Source: a virus
IMG/VR virus record: IMGVR_UViG_3300036985_004744
Coordinates: 1 to 34,070 of that record
DNA: 34,070 bases
Strand: one strand, 5' to 3'
Positions 2,767 through 29,566 of the stretch are shown one piece after another; position 1 is the first letter of the stretch; each line of letters begins with the position of its first letter. The translations under genes and the position numbers were made by a program. The notes below the pieces were generated by a model. It was given only the letters and a program-made list of their open reading frames with translations. It searched no databases and was not told where the DNA came from.

Positions 2767-5076
2767 ATGAGATTCACCAAGCAGTCCGTCGACGACGTCA
2801 AAAGGGCCGCGAGCATGGCTGCAGTGGCGCGAGTGTTCTGCGCGCGCGTCAAACATGAGCACGGGGCGCATTATTCGGCGGTGTGCCCGTTCCATCAGGA
2901 TAGCAACCCGTCGCTGGACATCGACGAGGCGAAGGGCCTGTACATCTGCAGGGCATGCGGGGCCGGTGGCGACGCCCTGGTGATGATTGAGAAGCAGCGG
3001 GGCGTCGGGTTCGCCGAGGCCATCATGGAGCTGTCGACGATGACCGGCATCCCCCTCGTCGAGGTGGCCGACGAGGCCCCTCGCGTCGTCGCTGAGTGGC
3101 ACTACGTCGACGACGCTGGGCGCAAGGCCTACACCATCAAACGATGGGAACCGGGCAGGGGGCGCGACGGGAAAAGCAACGGCAAGCGAAAGTCCTACTC
3201 CCAGCACCTCGCCGACGGCATGCCGGGCAAGGCGCAGACCCAGCTGCCCTATCGCCTCCCTCAGCTCATCGAGGCTCGCAAGGCCGGGGCGTTCGTCGTC
3301 CTCGTCGAGGGCGAGAAGGCAGCAGACGCGGTCGTCGCCCTGGGCGTCGTCGCCACGACGTGGGCCGGTGGCACTGGTGCCGTCGGAGAGGGTGAGCGGA
3401 CGACGTGGACGCCTGCTTTCGCCGAGCATTTTCGGGGCGCGCACATTGCCCTGTGGCCCGACAACGACGAGGTTGGCAAGGCCGCGATGGGGCGCATCAT
3501 GCAAGTCCTCGACGGGGTCGCTGCCGAGGTAGTGCTCATCGAAACGAGCATGAACATGAAGGGCGCCGACGCCTGCGACTGGGTGAGCGCAGGCGGGACT
3601 CGCGATGCCTTGCAAGGGCTCATCCTCGAAGCCCGCAAGGCAGCAACCTCGCGCGTCGTCACGCCTGCCCCACCACCCACCAGTGGCCATGCCGACTACC
3701 TCACCGACAGCGGCAATGCCGAGCGCTTTGTCCGCATGCATGGGCAGGACTTTCGCTTCCTCGTCGACGCTGGCCGGTGGATGCACTGGACCGGGTCATG
3801 CTGGGACCTCGACGGCGACGCCGCTGCATTGCATGCGACCAAACTTGTCGCACGCAGCTGGCGCGTGGACTCCGTCGCCGAGGCCGACCAGACCGAGGGG
3901 TTGAAGCTGCGCCGCCATGCCGACCGCAGCGAGGCCGCGCCCAGGCGGGCCGCAATGCTGACGCTGGCCGCAAGCGAGGAGGGCATCGCGGTCTCGTCCG
4001 CCGACCTCGACAAGGACCCCGAAATCCTGAACGTCCTGAACGGCACCATCGACCTACGCACCGGCACCCTCCGAAAGCATGACCGCCGGGACCTATGCAC
4101 CAAGATAGTGCTCGTAGACTTCGACCCCGCTGCGCAGTGCCCGGTGTTCGACGCATTCCTCGCTGAGATTCTCCCCATCGAGGAGACCCGCGAGTACCTG
4201 GGGAGGTGCGTCGGGTACGCTGCCACCGGCGTCATCCGCGAACATTTTTTTCCGGTGCTGTGGGGTCAGACCGGGCGCAATGGCAAGGGCACGTTTATCG
4301 AGGCCGTTTTCGCCTCCCTGGGCCCCTATGCCACCGCCCTCCCCAACGACGTCATCATCGAGTCGAGGTCTGACCCACATCCCAACATGTTTGCCCAGCT
4401 CAAGGGGGTGAGGATGGGCGTCGTGGCCGAGCTCAGGCCGACGGACAAACTGAACGAGGGGATGCTGAAAAAGCTGAGCGGCGGGGACAGCATCCGCGCG
4501 CGCTACATGGGCGGGGAGTTTTTTACGTTCACGCCCAGCCAAAAGATGTTCCTGCAGACCAACTACAAGCCCAGGGTTCGAGGTGGGGACCCGGCGTTGT
4601 GGGCACGGATGCGCGTGATTCCGTTTGGCGTCTCGTTCGTCGGCCGCGAGGACCTCGGGCTCAAGGCCCGCATCCACGCCGAGCTGCCCGGCCTCCTCGC
4701 CCGTATCGTCCGGTGGTCCCTCGACTGGCGGCAGCTGGGCCTCACCCCCCCGCAGGAGGTCGTCGACGCCACTGCCGAATACCGCGAGGAGTCCGACCGG
4801 GTGGGCCAGTTCCTCGAGGAAAGGACCGAGAAGGCCCCCATGGCCCGCTGCCCAGCCGGTGCGCTGTGGCGCGCGTTCCGCACCTGGTGCGAGGAAAGAG
4901 GCGAAAGCGCAGGGGGCCAAAATGCTTTCTTTGTGGAAGTCAAGTCGCGCGGTTTTTCGGCCGTCAAAGTCAGTGGCGAGCGCCGCTACCAAGGGCTGCA
5001 GCTGCGTTCGGGGGTATCGTCCGATGGGTCGATATCGCCCTCGGGGAGCGTGAACGTAGAAGATCCATGGGCTTAG
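2767..5076 (+). CDS. P4-type primase-helicase (zinc finger, TOPRIM, D5-type ATPase)
   Basis: 769-residue replication initiator combining primase and helicase. The CHC2-type zinc finger is at residues 40-64 (C40, H43, C61, C64). The TOPRIM core follows, with VLVEGEK (E181, E183) and the acidic pair in WPDND (D232, D234). A D5_N-like segment carries LNVLNGTIDLRTG at ~421-433, and the superfamily 3 helicase ATPase has Walker A GQTGRNGKGTF (500-510), Walker B-like GVVAEL (551-556) and the sensor LQTNYKP around N599. This order matches phage P4 alpha and its relatives, which bind iterons at their origin, prime and unwind DNA. The iteron array begins 23 bp downstream, a strong contextual match. No phage DNA polymerase is present, so host polymerase would be needed. 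The C-terminal ~100 residues (LWRAFRTWCEE) look like the usual winged-helix DNA-binding end. Confidence 0.95.
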   Translation: MRFTKQSVDDVKRAASMAAVARVFCARVKHEHGAHYSAVCPFHQDSNPSLDIDEAKGLYICRACGAGGDALVMIEKQRGVGFAEAIMELSTMTGIPLVEVADEAPRVVAEWHYVDDAGRKAYTIKRWEPGRGRDGKSNGKRKSYSQHLADGMPGKAQTQLPYRLPQLIEARKAGAFVVLVEGEKAADAVVALGVVATTWAGGTGAVGEGERTTWTPAFAEHFRGAHIALWPDNDEVGKAAMGRIMQVLDGVAAEVVLIETSMNMKGADACDWVSAGGTRDALQGLILEARKAATSRVVTPAPPPTSGHADYLTDSGNAERFVRMHGQDFRFLVDAGRWMHWTGSCWDLDGDAAALHATKLVARSWRVDSVAEADQTEGLKLRRHADRSEAAPRRAAMLTLAASEEGIAVSSADLDKDPEILNVLNGTIDLRTGTLRKHDRRDLCTKIVLVDFDPAAQCPVFDAFLAEILPIEETREYLGRCVGYAATGVIREHFFPVLWGQTGRNGKGTFIEAVFASLGPYATALPNDVIIESRSDPHPNMFAQLKGVRMGVVAELRPTDKLNEGMLKKLSGGDSIRARYMGGEFFTFTPSQKMFLQTNYKPRVRGGDPALWARMRVIPFGVSFVGREDLGLKARIHAELPGLLARIVRWSLDWRQLGLTPPQEVVDATAEYREESDRVGQFLEERTEKAPMARCPAGALWRAFRTWCEERGESAGGQNAFFVEVKSRGFSAVKVSGERRYQGLQLRSGVSSDGSISPSGSVNVEDPWA

Positions 5077-5456
5077 CGGTTTTTGGCTTTTATATACATG
5101 GACAGACTGGACAGACTGGACAGATGTCAAAATATGAGTCTGTCCAGGCTAAACCGGCATCAGGGAGCCGTTTTGGACAGGCTGGACAGACTGGACAGAC
5201 TTTTACAGGTTTTTGCTGCGTAGAGAGCGCGAGAAGTGTCTCACCCCACCTCCGTTTTGGGGCTCTTTTTCAGAGAGCGACTTTTTGGGAAAAGTCTGTC
5301 CAGTCTGTCCAGAACAAGAAAATAAAGGCTTTGCAAAGCGCTAGAACCGTGGACAGACTTTGAAAAACCGCCCTGTCCAAGTCTGTCCACCTGTCCAGCG
5401 CCGTCGCGGCAAAGCACCACATGAACAACCACTGAACAAAACGAGGGCCGTAACGC
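5077..5456. other. 380-bp non-coding region with iterons: candidate replication origin
   Basis: This is the only gene-free stretch longer than 300 bases. It is visibly richer in A and T than its surroundings and holds direct and inverted copies of a 9-bp word (listed separately), plus the perfect 12-bp palindrome GCTTTGCAAAGC at 5328-5339. A TATATA run lies at its left edge (5091-5096). One + strand frame stays open across part of it but runs out of phase through the primase gene and shows no protein-like composition. Adjacent to a P4-type initiator, an origin is the best reading; an operator array controlling the flanking genes is the alternative. Confidence 0.7.
5099..5397. repeat. Iteron array, ~13 copies of TGGACAGAC in both orientations
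   Basis: Forward copies (TGGACAGAC, last base or two variable) start at 5099, 5108, 5117, 5174, 5183, 5192 and 5350. Reverse copies (GTCTGTCCA or a close variant) start at 5138, 5294, 5303, 5371, 5381 and about 5389. The two triplets at 5099 and 5174 and the pair at 5294 are exactly head-to-tail at 9-bp spacing. The last copies are degenerate. I noticed only isolated partial matches to the word elsewhere in the genome. Confidence 0.9.
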
Positions 5457-5741
5457 ATGACCGCACCCCTGACCGACTACCAGCTCCGCCACCTGCGCAG
5501 CCTCATCGAGCGCGAGCGCACCAGTTCCGGCGAGACCGCCGCCGGAATCCTGCTTGCCGCTGCCCTCGCCCGCCTGCAGCACTGCGAGCGCAGGCTCGCC
5601 CAGGCCGAGGGTCTGGCGGTGGCGCTGCGCTACTATGCTGCCCGCGAATACAGCAGCCGCACCGCGCCGGACTCCGCTATCCAATGGCACGCAGACAAAG
5701 CCCTCGCCGCCTGGGCCCGCATCGAGGGGCAGGAGCCATGA
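5457..5741 (+). CDS. Hypothetical helical protein
   Basis: 94 residues. It begins right after the iteron region with a weak GAGGG ribosome site about 12 bases upstream of the ATG. It reads as a three-helix domain: LTDYQLRHLRSLIERE, then TAAGILLAAALARLQHCERRLAQAEG, then a third helix ending in HADKALAAWARIEGQ. No recognisable motif or membrane segment. The stop overlaps the start of the zinc-ribbon gene, opening a chain of overlapping small genes that runs to the RusA-like candidate. Function unknown. Confidence 0.7.
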   Translation: MTAPLTDYQLRHLRSLIERERTSSGETAAGILLAAALARLQHCERRLAQAEGLAVALRYYAAREYSSRTAPDSAIQWHADKALAAWARIEGQEP

Positions 5742-6908: not shown

Positions 6909-7295
6909 ATGGCGTCACGACGCGACATCTTTGACCTGGGCGCGAAACCCGCACCCAAGGGCCGACCCACCGCCGATGTCCCCGGCGACGCATGGACGCC
7001 GCGCGCGCCCGTCGTCGACGACGATGAGGACGGGCGCTCTTTCGACGAGGCCGCCGACGACATCCAGCGCCTGGCCGCCGGCAACCGCGCACACTACGTC
7101 CATGAGCTCGAGCTGCTCGCGGTAGCATGGCGCACCGACCTCTCCCTCGCCGCGACCTCCGCGCGCGCGGTGATGCACCTCCTTTCGCTGGCCGGCGGCG
7201 GACCTGAGAAACGACCACGGCCCCCGGTCGAGGTCGAGGACGGGGCCGACACCGACGTTCCGGACTGGACGCCCAGGGTGAAGCGTGACGGCTGA
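6909..7295 (+). CDS. Small terminase subunit candidate
   Basis: 128 residues from the ATG at 6909; an upstream ATG in frame (6819) lies inside the terminator hairpin and is rejected. N-terminus MASRRDIFDLGAKP, then an acidic stretch (DDDEDGRSFDEAADD) and a helical core with HYVHELELLAVAWRTDL and ATSARAVMHLLSLAGG, ending in an acidic, Pro-rich tail. No clear helix-turn-helix can be scored by eye. The assignment rests on size and on direct overlap with the large terminase gene, where the DNA-recognition subunit is normally encoded. Confidence 0.45.
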   Translation: MASRRDIFDLGAKPAPKGRPTADVPGDAWTPRAPVVDDDEDGRSFDEAADDIQRLAAGNRAHYVHELELLAVAWRTDLSLAATSARAVMHLLSLAGGGPEKRPRPPVEVEDGADTDVPDWTPRVKRDG

Positions 7296-8658
7296 GGTCA
7301 AGCGCGCGAGCCTGGAGTTGAACGACGGGCAGATAGCAATCGTCGACGACGTCACCTCTCGAATCATCGTGGCCGAGGGTGGGTATCGAGGAGGCAAAAC
7401 CTTTGGCCTCGCTTGCAAAGCGCTGGACCTCGCCAGGCGGAACACCCGCCCGGTGGTGTTTGGTGCCCCCACCTGGCCCATGGTGGAGCAGGTATTCGTC
7501 GAGACCCTGCGCGAGGTGTGCGGGCTGATGGGTATCGCGTTCTCGTGGAACGCCTACCACAAGACCGCGACTGTCTACCGGCGGCACCCTCGCCGCATCA
7601 TCTGCCGGTCTCTCGACAACCCTCGCAGCGCCGAGGGCCTGACCTCGTCATCGGCCATCGTCGACGAGTGGGAGCTGTGCCACCCGCAGGCCATCAAAAC
7701 CATCAACGCCCGCATCACCGCCGGCGCCGTTACCCAGCTCGTCCTCGGTGGCACGCCTGAGGGGTTTGGCCCGGCCTATGACCTCATCCTGAAACACCCG
7801 CAGCCGTCGACGACGGTGGTAAAGTTGCCGACCTCGGGCAACGCGCACCACCTGCGCGAGGACTACCTCGACTCCCAGCGGGCTGTCCTCGACGAGACCG
7901 AGCAGGCGGAGAAGCTGGACGGGGTGAGGCAGCAGAAAGGCGGTCTGGTGTACCGGCGGCTCCATCGCCCGACCACGTTCGGCACTCGCTGCATCCACCC
8001 CGACGAGCCCGTCGACCTCGAAATGTGGTGCGACTTCAACGTCGGGGCGCAGTGTTGGTACCTCGTCGAGGTGCATCGCTCCACCCGCCGGTTCCACGTC
8101 GTCCTCGAGATGGTCGGCTATGACGTCGACACCGACCAGCACGCTGCCCGGGTGACCTCTCACATCGCCGACTACCTCACCCGCCGCAGCCGTCATCGCG
8201 AGCGCGTCGACGCCGACGACGTCCGCCGCATGCATCTGTCCGCACCCTGCGACGCAAGCGGTCGAAACCGGGGCGCCCTCGGGTCACATGCCACCGTGCT
8301 CACCTCCCACGGGTTCCGCCCCCGCTACAGCACCAGGGGCAACCCCGACGTCGAGGACCGGGTGCTCGCAGTCAACGTCGCCCTGGGCCAGCGCCCGACC
8401 CGGCTCACCATCGACGAGGCCGCCTGCCCGTTCCTTGCGCGCGCCATCACCCAACAAGGCCGAGACCCATCAGGCGCACCCTCAAAAAACAAGGACCCGC
8501 GCAACGACCTGTCGGGCCCGGTCGACGCCCTCGGATACGGGGTTTTCTGGCACTCCCCGGTGTTCCGCTACCGCGTCAACGCCACCACCGACCCCGCCGT
8601 CGCGTTCGCTGTCGAGGTCAAGGAGCGCGAGGAGCGGCTGTCCGACGTGCTGCGCTAG
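7285..8658 (+). CDS. Terminase large subunit
   Basis: 457-residue ATP-driven DNA packaging motor with nuclease. Starts at GTG 7285, overlapping the previous gene by 11 bases. ATPase: Walker A EGGYRGGKT (31-39), Walker B AIVDEWE (124-130), coupling motif GGTPEG (155-160). Nuclease (RNase H-like): first acidic residue in MWCDFN (D250), then PCDASGRNRG (D323) and the closing NDLSGPVDALGYG (D408, D414). Length is normal. It acts at the portal to cut and pump DNA; whether packaging is headful or cos cannot be settled here, although a circular assembly without a defined end fits circular permutation. Confidence 0.95.
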   Translation: MTAEVKRASLELNDGQIAIVDDVTSRIIVAEGGYRGGKTFGLACKALDLARRNTRPVVFGAPTWPMVEQVFVETLREVCGLMGIAFSWNAYHKTATVYRRHPRRIICRSLDNPRSAEGLTSSSAIVDEWELCHPQAIKTINARITAGAVTQLVLGGTPEGFGPAYDLILKHPQPSTTVVKLPTSGNAHHLREDYLDSQRAVLDETEQAEKLDGVRQQKGGLVYRRLHRPTTFGTRCIHPDEPVDLEMWCDFNVGAQCWYLVEVHRSTRRFHVVLEMVGYDVDTDQHAARVTSHIADYLTRRSRHRERVDADDVRRMHLSAPCDASGRNRGALGSHATVLTSHGFRPRYSTRGNPDVEDRVLAVNVALGQRPTRLTIDEAACPFLARAITQQGRDPSGAPSKNKDPRNDLSGPVDALGYGVFWHSPVFRYRVNATTDPAVAFAVEVKEREERLSDVLR

Positions 8659-16337: not shown

Positions 16338-16777
16338 TTGAGGTTGCCGTCAACGAGGTCCACGACGTCCGCACGGGCATCACCACCCGCACCCCCATCC
16401 TGCGCCCCCTCATTGACGTCCAGGCCGAGCGCGCCGCTGTTCTCACCGCCGAGGTCGAGGCAGCCGTCGACGCTGCATACCCTGGGCGCGAGCAGACGCT
16501 GCTGACCATGGACCTCGCCGAGCTTCAACAGGCGATGCGCCCCGACAGTGGGGCCGACTTCTCCCTCGTTGACGGGGACGTGTTCTCCCGCCTCGTCGGC
16601 GCGGTAGAATGGGTCAAGGCTGCGCGCCGTCTCGGTGCCGCTGCCGAGGAGGCATGCGAAGCCGCGACGACCATGGACGCGCTGCAGGCCATCACCGTCG
16701 ACATCGCCTCACTCGGTCCCCCGCCTCTCGTTCGCAGTCGCGAGACCCGCCGGGCTCTCGACCTCATCTCACTGTAG
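16334..16777 (+). CDS. Hypothetical protein following the fiber gene
   Basis: 147 residues; ATG 16334 chosen for its overlap with the fiber stop, because the frame upstream shadows that gene. N-terminal part is beta-like (MIEVAVNEVHDVRTGITTRTPI); the rest is helical and acidic (LDVQAERAAVLTAEVEAAVDAAY; RLGAAAEEACEAATTMDALQ). Position directly after a fiber gene and a helical composition are what a fiber chaperone or assembly factor would show, but no motif confirms it. Confidence 0.6.
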   Translation: MIEVAVNEVHDVRTGITTRTPILRPLIDVQAERAAVLTAEVEAAVDAAYPGREQTLLTMDLAELQQAMRPDSGADFSLVDGDVFSRLVGAVEWVKAARRLGAAAEEACEAATTMDALQAITVDIASLGPPPLVRSRETRRALDLISL

Positions 16778-28904: not shown

Positions 28905-29566
28905 CCGCGCGCGTGTTCTCTCGTCGATTCCTCTCTGCCGCTGCGACCCAGACGCACGCACACGCCTATTCCGAGACCGCTCAGTCGCTCGTCGGGCGCA
29001 CTCGGTTCGCTTGGGAGCTGGCCACCGGGGCCAGCGCAGTTACCGGTGAGCTCCCTATGGTCGAGGTCAACCCGCAGGGGCAGATAGGCTGCGACATGAG
29101 CGGGCCCCCGTTTGGTCCCGCCCTGCTGCTGCCGGTGTGGGAATGGGTGGGGCAGCCTGATGGGGGCGTCTCGCCAAGCAACTACCTCAGCGCCATCGGT
29201 ACGACGACGGTGAGGCTGCCCCAGTTCTCGCTGTGGAATCGCCCGCATGCAGTACGCCCCGACGGGCTCGCCCCGCTGCAGCAGATGGTCTTCTCTCATC
29301 GCACCCAGGCCGGCGCAGGCACGTCGACGGTGCTCACCATCACTTTCCGCAACATCACCAACGGCACCGAGGTGGTCTACACCCGCACTATCAACACGAC
29401 GTCGACGGTGGACTACACCGAGACCGGCTACGTTCCTCTCGCGCCCGGCCTAAACAGCCTGCAGATATCCGCGAGGTCCAGCGTCGGTACGCGCGTTTTC
29501 AACATCCGCTCCATGCTCCTCGCCGTTGGCGCCAAGCGCCGCGTCGACCTCTCTTTCCCCGGGTGA
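28901..29566 (+). CDS. Beta-rich tail-associated protein
   Basis: 221 residues; ATG 28901 chosen for its overlap with the previous stop. An N-terminal segment (RVFSRRFLSAAATQTHAHAYSE) precedes a beta-sandwich-like domain: VLTITFRNITNGTEVVYTRTIN, TVDYTETGYVPLAPGLNSLQISAR and TRVFNIRSMLLAVGA. This looks like a carbohydrate-binding or jelly-roll fold, but no binding residues can be named. It is the last structural gene before the patatin and lysis genes. Confidence 0.55.
   Translation: MTARVFSRRFLSAAATQTHAHAYSETAQSLVGRTRFAWELATGASAVTGELPMVEVNPQGQIGCDMSGPPFGPALLLPVWEWVGQPDGGVSPSNYLSAIGTTTVRLPQFSLWNRPHAVRPDGLAPLQQMVFSHRTQAGAGTSTVLTITFRNITNGTEVVYTRTINTTSTVDYTETGYVPLAPGLNSLQISARSSVGTRVFNIRSMLLAVGAKRRVDLSFPG

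Follow-up and report, generated by a model that had tools for sequence, protein, structure and literature searches.

The gene-free region at positions 5077-5456 of the DNA analysed here is, with a probability of about 87%, a replication origin or an essential cis-acting part of one, in which the copies of TGGACAG(AC) are putative sites for the winged helix of the initiator encoded upstream. The whole stretch, hereafter called the window, is a virus record of 34,070 bases, which may be incomplete. The initial annotation of this DNA had noticed an array of short repeats beside a P4-type primase-helicase and had read it as a candidate phage origin. The observation is sound and the reading largely so, and such an origin is ordinary for the D5/P4 protein family. 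The part worth following is the layout, which is conserved in relatives with changed words.

Iteron array in the longest gene-free region

In our own gene list no other stretch free of plausible genes is as long as the gap at 5077-5456 (380 bp), which was designated as a putative origin region based on the gap analysis and the homologous layout in relatives. Its GC content is 0.51, whereas the other gaps have 0.61-0.73 and the window as a whole has 0.66, which makes it the only AT-rich gap. It had been described as the only long gene-free stretch and as AT-richer. It is indeed the longest and AT-richer, but further long gaps of 328 bp at 28905 and 271 bp at 16338 are present.

The 7-mer TGGACAG occurs 13 times in 5099-5397, with seven forward copies (starting at 5099, 5108, 5117, 5174, 5183, 5192 and 5350) and six reverse copies (5140, 5296, 5305, 5373, 5383 and 5391). 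The first copy lies 23 bp past the stop of the primase-helicase gene. In a motif scan of the whole window the array was unique, as it holds 13 of the 16 copies; 200 dinucleotide shuffles of the window gave a maximum of two copies per 300 bp, and outside the array any 7-mer reached at most five copies per 300 bp. Earlier, about 13 copies of a 9-mer had been counted. This number and the division into seven forward and six reverse copies apply to the 7-mer core, whereas the exact 9-mer TGGACAGAC is present eight times within the array, in addition to two copies with one mismatch. Therefore, the 7-mer is the better description.

According to the motif scan, block A (5099-5125) consists of three forward iterons (TGGACAGAC, TGGACAGAC and TGGACAGAT) and is followed by a single reverse iteron A' (5138-5146). 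Block B (5174-5200) comprises three forward iterons, block C (5294-5311) two reverse iterons and block D (5350-5398) one forward iteron at 5350 and three reverse ones with 9-mers near 5371, 5381 and 5390. The exact 9-bp spacing claimed for three blocks was recovered in block A (5099/5108/5117), block B (5174/5183/5192) and block C (5294/5303). Between A and B, reading of the sequence and pair counts in relatives revealed a hairpin ACCGGC..AGCCGTTTT on the forward strand (5152-5172). A 93-bp spacer (5201-5293) with T-runs separates the opposed blocks B and C. It is moderately AT-rich (GC 0.48 vs 0.66 overall), and its composition and the distance in relatives make it a candidate melting site. 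The segment at 5312-5349, delimited by sequence and the alignment of relatives, comprises an A-rich stretch and the 12-bp palindrome GCTTTGCAAAGC at 5328-5339, which is present as described before.

A change in GC skew had been suggested as a check. The skew does not switch at the site (about 5 kb) and the cumulative skew falls almost steadily; the absent switch is weak evidence either way. When phages and plasmids were searched with the gap by blastn, nothing useful was obtained apart from a 23-base match in a Nitratidesulfovibrio plasmid.

Elsewhere in the window, a YqaJ/RecE-like recombination exonuclease is encoded at 66-539, upstream of the replication gene (Pfam, PHROGs). The record also carries a terminase large-subunit match at 7285-8658 (PHROGs) and a weak baseplate-like match, and three relatives' records also carry one. 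Most of ten further ORFs scanned in 7285-33799 had no PHROG match.

The primase-helicase and its predicted winged helix

The gene at 2767-5076 on the forward strand encodes a primase-helicase of 769 aa, the initiator, with a DnaG-type zinc ribbon, D5_N, DUF5906 (SF3-type helicase) and Pox_D5. The assignment of the neighbouring gene to the P4/D5 family of primase-helicases was supported by Pfam (D5_N, E 5.4e-28; DUF5906, E 9e-7; Pox_D5, E 3.2e-4), and the protein matches DNA primase in PHROGs. Moreover, residues 501-747 match PDB chain 7ola by sequence (E 1.3e-3), which the fold search with the AF2 model of the initiator names as SaPI5 primase-helicase (TM 0.71 by target length). The species genomes scanned with the initiator protein alone yielded no relative.

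Residues 652-769 were modelled by AF2 as a winged helix with a mean pLDDT of 70. Based on AF2 models, fold matches and the residues that segregate with the iteron class (see below), we propose the C-terminal winged helix at approximately residues 677-746 (4795-5004, forward strand) as the reader of the iterons, with a predicted recognition helix at about 718-727 and a wing at 732-746. RFX DNA-binding domains gave the best fold matches to residues 652-769 (Z 10.5 and 9.1). For 1ka8, the origin-binding domain of P4, Z was 7.7 over 78 residues, and a Z below 8 may reflect a common arrangement. Since unrelated winged helices score about as high as 1ka8, the winged-helix fold is supported but a special kinship with P4 is not.

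Conserved layout and altered words in relatives

The initiators of L224-L228, L005 and L006 are 70-74% identical to that of the window, and the one of L229 is more distant. All these loci have the same layout after the stop of the initiator gene, namely block A forward, block B forward, a spacer, block C reverse and block D opposed. The iteron word is of the TGGAC type in L224-L228 (TGGACGCA or TGGACAGAC) and of the TGAC type in L005, L006 and L229 (e.g. ATGACGGAC or GTGACAGAG), with TGACGGAC as the word in the origin region of L006. A lack of conservation in relatives had been named as an argument against an origin; what we found is that the slot layout is kept but the word itself is altered in L005, L006 and L229. 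From the last iteron of B to the first of C, the start-to-start distance is about 90-103 bp in most relatives and 141 bp in L229. In the TGGAC relatives the iteron columns are slightly more conserved than the rest (0.63-0.66 vs 0.53-0.56), and this excess is smaller still toward the TGAC class. A stronger constraint on the iterons than on the spacer was thus seen weakly and not toward the TGAC class.

Slippage can expand tandem 9-bp units, and the array could in principle have no function and be a neutral or a selfish repeat. With copies in both orientations, slots that are kept by relatives despite altered words and the same place of such arrays in unrelated elements (see below), we regard this as extremely improbable.

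The hairpin between A and B (CGGC..GCCG) is present in 8/8 aligned sequences, with 88.9% of the cells of this helix 1 paired and three pairs with changes on both sides among the aligned relatives. In close relatives it forms a T-tailed stem (AAAAAACGGC...GCCGTTTTTTT), at which the transcript of the initiator gene likely ends. A simple terminator scan did not have this conserved hairpin among its listed stems, probably because the T-run pairs with an A-run. In L006 (4221-4250) two opposed iterons (GATGACGCGG...CCGCGTCATC), followed by a T-run, make up the first stem of the terminator type downstream of the initiator gene. At the place of the palindrome GCTTTGCAAAGC the relatives have a GGC..GCC dyad (helix 2, 75% of cells paired). 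We also considered the palindrome as a conserved cruciform and rejected this, as only the GGC/GCC core is kept and no compensatory change was found.

Initiator residues that follow the iteron class

We compared initiator residues 609-747 between the two iteron classes. Residues that separate TGGAC from TGAC loci make up 13 of the 37 positions in the turn, the recognition helix (H3) and the wing compared to 6 of 102 elsewhere (p 4.5e-5), a value that is descriptive because the comparison covers a single evolutionary split and a small number of sequences and because the residues had been seen before the segments were chosen. In five splits within the iteron classes the residues were not concentrated in this way (p 0.43 to 1). 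The location of the class-split residues in H3 and the wing therefore ties the array to the C-terminus of the initiator itself.

There is about an even chance that origins were retargeted in this clade as a natural series. In this reading, initiators of around 70% identity keep the same slots, almost all sites differ jointly between TGGAC-type and TGAC-type words, and a few altered H3 and wing residues read these words. If it is true, the correspondence between winged helix and iteron would amount to a readable code, and related phages could avoid firing each other's origins. Pairs of closely related initiators whose iteron words differ exist in the clade of the window; therefore, the choice of origin by D5/P4-type initiators can be tested by domain swap.

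The class split also bears on the possibility that the repeats serve a transcription regulator as operators, be it for repression or autoregulation, and are not an origin. Intergenic short repeats of mixed orientation can be operators, and the small downstream ORFs without a family match (Pfam, PHROGs) could include another DNA-binding protein. However, the iteron class splits with the winged-helix residues of the initiator itself, many elements with unrelated initiators also have repeats at this place 3' of the gene, and a scan of 4900-5600 for promoters of the sigma-70-like type found none. Accordingly, we consider operators very unlikely.

Similar arrays at other loci

For a wider survey, initiators were taken by protein only, clustered at 60% identity and inspected over 450 bp past the stop, with control flanks taken from the remaining ORFs of these loci. 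One 7-mer was present at least five times in the 3' flank of 16/51 initiator clusters compared to 12/351 control flanks, and all 16 repeat-bearing clusters had the word in both orientations. About two thirds of the surveyed D5/VapE-type initiator clusters remained below the five-copy threshold. The words differ between clusters and include AGGTTGG, TCGGGCA, GGACCCA, TGTGACA, ATGACGG and others. A search just 3' of the primase-helicase gene for a short repeat in both orientations can serve as a rule for finding candidate origins in many uncultured phages.

Dense TGGACA arrays, defined by at least five copies in 500 bp, are present at a minimum of 24 loci in IMG/VR. Among the 24 dense arrays listed, 15 are located at the 3' end of a verified D5, VapE-like, DUF5906 or primase-type gene (L013, L025, L033, L039, L083, L090, L092, L093, L100, L107, L116, L117, L137, L138 and L139) and nine have no tie to a verified initiator. 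D5_N alone was found in 5/24 dense records compared to 1/26 comparison records. The idea that TGGACAG marks one C-terminal domain common to D5 and VapE initiators was rejected. A common word does not imply a reader shared by sequence, because the C-terminal 150 aa of the TGGACAG-type proteins are without clear similarity between most of these families.

At three of these loci the array overlaps the coding sequence and is contained in the 3' part of the initiator gene (L013, 11678-11947; L092, 4547-4738; L025, 1970-2239), and the proteins contain iteron-encoded runs such as SVQSVQSV or NLSNLSN. A TGGACA-rich stretch in L102 (57-545) is located within a gene with a PHROG portal protein match and probably consists of coding repeats. 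In L060 (5195-5493) the neighbours of a dense TGGACA array are a ParB-like gene and a DNA helicase of another kind (PHROG 16), which was no D5/VapE initiator by scan.

Iteron-like arrays also serve as parS sites or attP arms, and the ParB-like gene beside the L060 array would fit with repeats that act as partition (centromere) or integrase arm sites. For the window this is highly improbable, since neither a ParB nor an integrase family was detected among the approximately 20 ORFs scanned and the iteron word co-varies with the C-terminus of the primase-helicase.

Proposed mechanism and comparison with known systems

By analogy with the published systems described below, we propose that initiator monomers would bind the forward block B and the reverse block C, both with a 9-bp pitch, and that hexamers would assemble there so that they face one another over the AT-richer spacer (about 93 bp). 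The spacer would then be melted by the initiator, and the same protein would unwind and prime in both directions. As for blocks A and D, they probably contribute to affinity or copy control. Besides, the A-B hairpin probably stops the initiator transcript ahead of the core.

Two orientations of the iterons and their position beside the initiator had been called unusual. This does not hold, as the crr repeats of P4 and the repeats of Streptococcus phage Sfi21 are also present in both orientations, in agreement with reports on PICI and SaPI (PMC6092414, PMC7581432), and as P4 crr and the origins of Sfi21 and PICI/SaPI likewise lie 3' of the gene. With these precedents and that of SCCmec, orientation and position are ordinary for D5/P4-type origins.

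In P4 (X51522), crr is located directly 3' of alpha with a terminator between them, and the array of the window is likewise directly 3' of its initiator. The type I repeats of crr occur in both orientations with a pitch of 9-10 bp, similar to the 9-bp pitch described here, and the iteron cores TGAACAG (P4) and TGGACAG are one base apart. Both P4 alpha and the initiator of the window are P4-type primase-helicases with a winged helix, which in the window is a predicted one. However, P4 is a satellite, whereas the window record carries a terminase gene, and P4 has separate crr and ori regions, with crr as a 120-bp duplication, whereas the window has one array. No copy of TGAACAG was detected in this array.

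The actual origin of P4 lies some 2 kb past the start of alpha. Because P4 has only crr 3' of alpha, the array could be the equivalent of crr, that is, an accessory region with initiator sites for efficient replication or copy control and a melting site elsewhere. In contrast, the 34-kb record, which may be incomplete, contains no second iteron cluster, and the origins of Sfi21 and PICI do lie directly 3' of the gene. A crr-like accessory is therefore unlikely, though not negligible, compared to an origin or an essential part of one.

For Sfi21 (AF115103), the record's own annotation places an origin of 302 bp immediately 3' of orf382, a putative primase. It contains nine copies of AGTAAC in both orientations and is like the window in orientation and place but unlike it in the word. 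The Sfi21 origin is very AT-rich (GC 0.31) compared to a GC content of 0.51 in the gap of the window, and Sfi21 is a phage of low-GC Gram-positive bacteria.

The same layout of position and orientation was described for origins of SaPI and Gram-negative PICI (PMC6092414, PMC7581432), and a plasmid with the rep-ori region of a PICI replicates (PMC6092414). The C-terminal domain of SaPI Rep recognises the downstream iterons, and the C-terminal domain of SCCmec Cch2 recognises AAGTG repeats directly downstream of its gene (PMC7581432). SaPI and PICI are satellite islands, and a PICI depends on a helper phage; the window record has phage genes and extra copies in blocks A and D. Like the initiator of the window, Cch2 is a D5-type helicase with repeats directly downstream; unlike the window, SCCmec has only three short iterons and a separate primase/polymerase. 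The putative origin in the window is a further example of the arrangement known from P4, Sfi21 and the staphylococcal islands.
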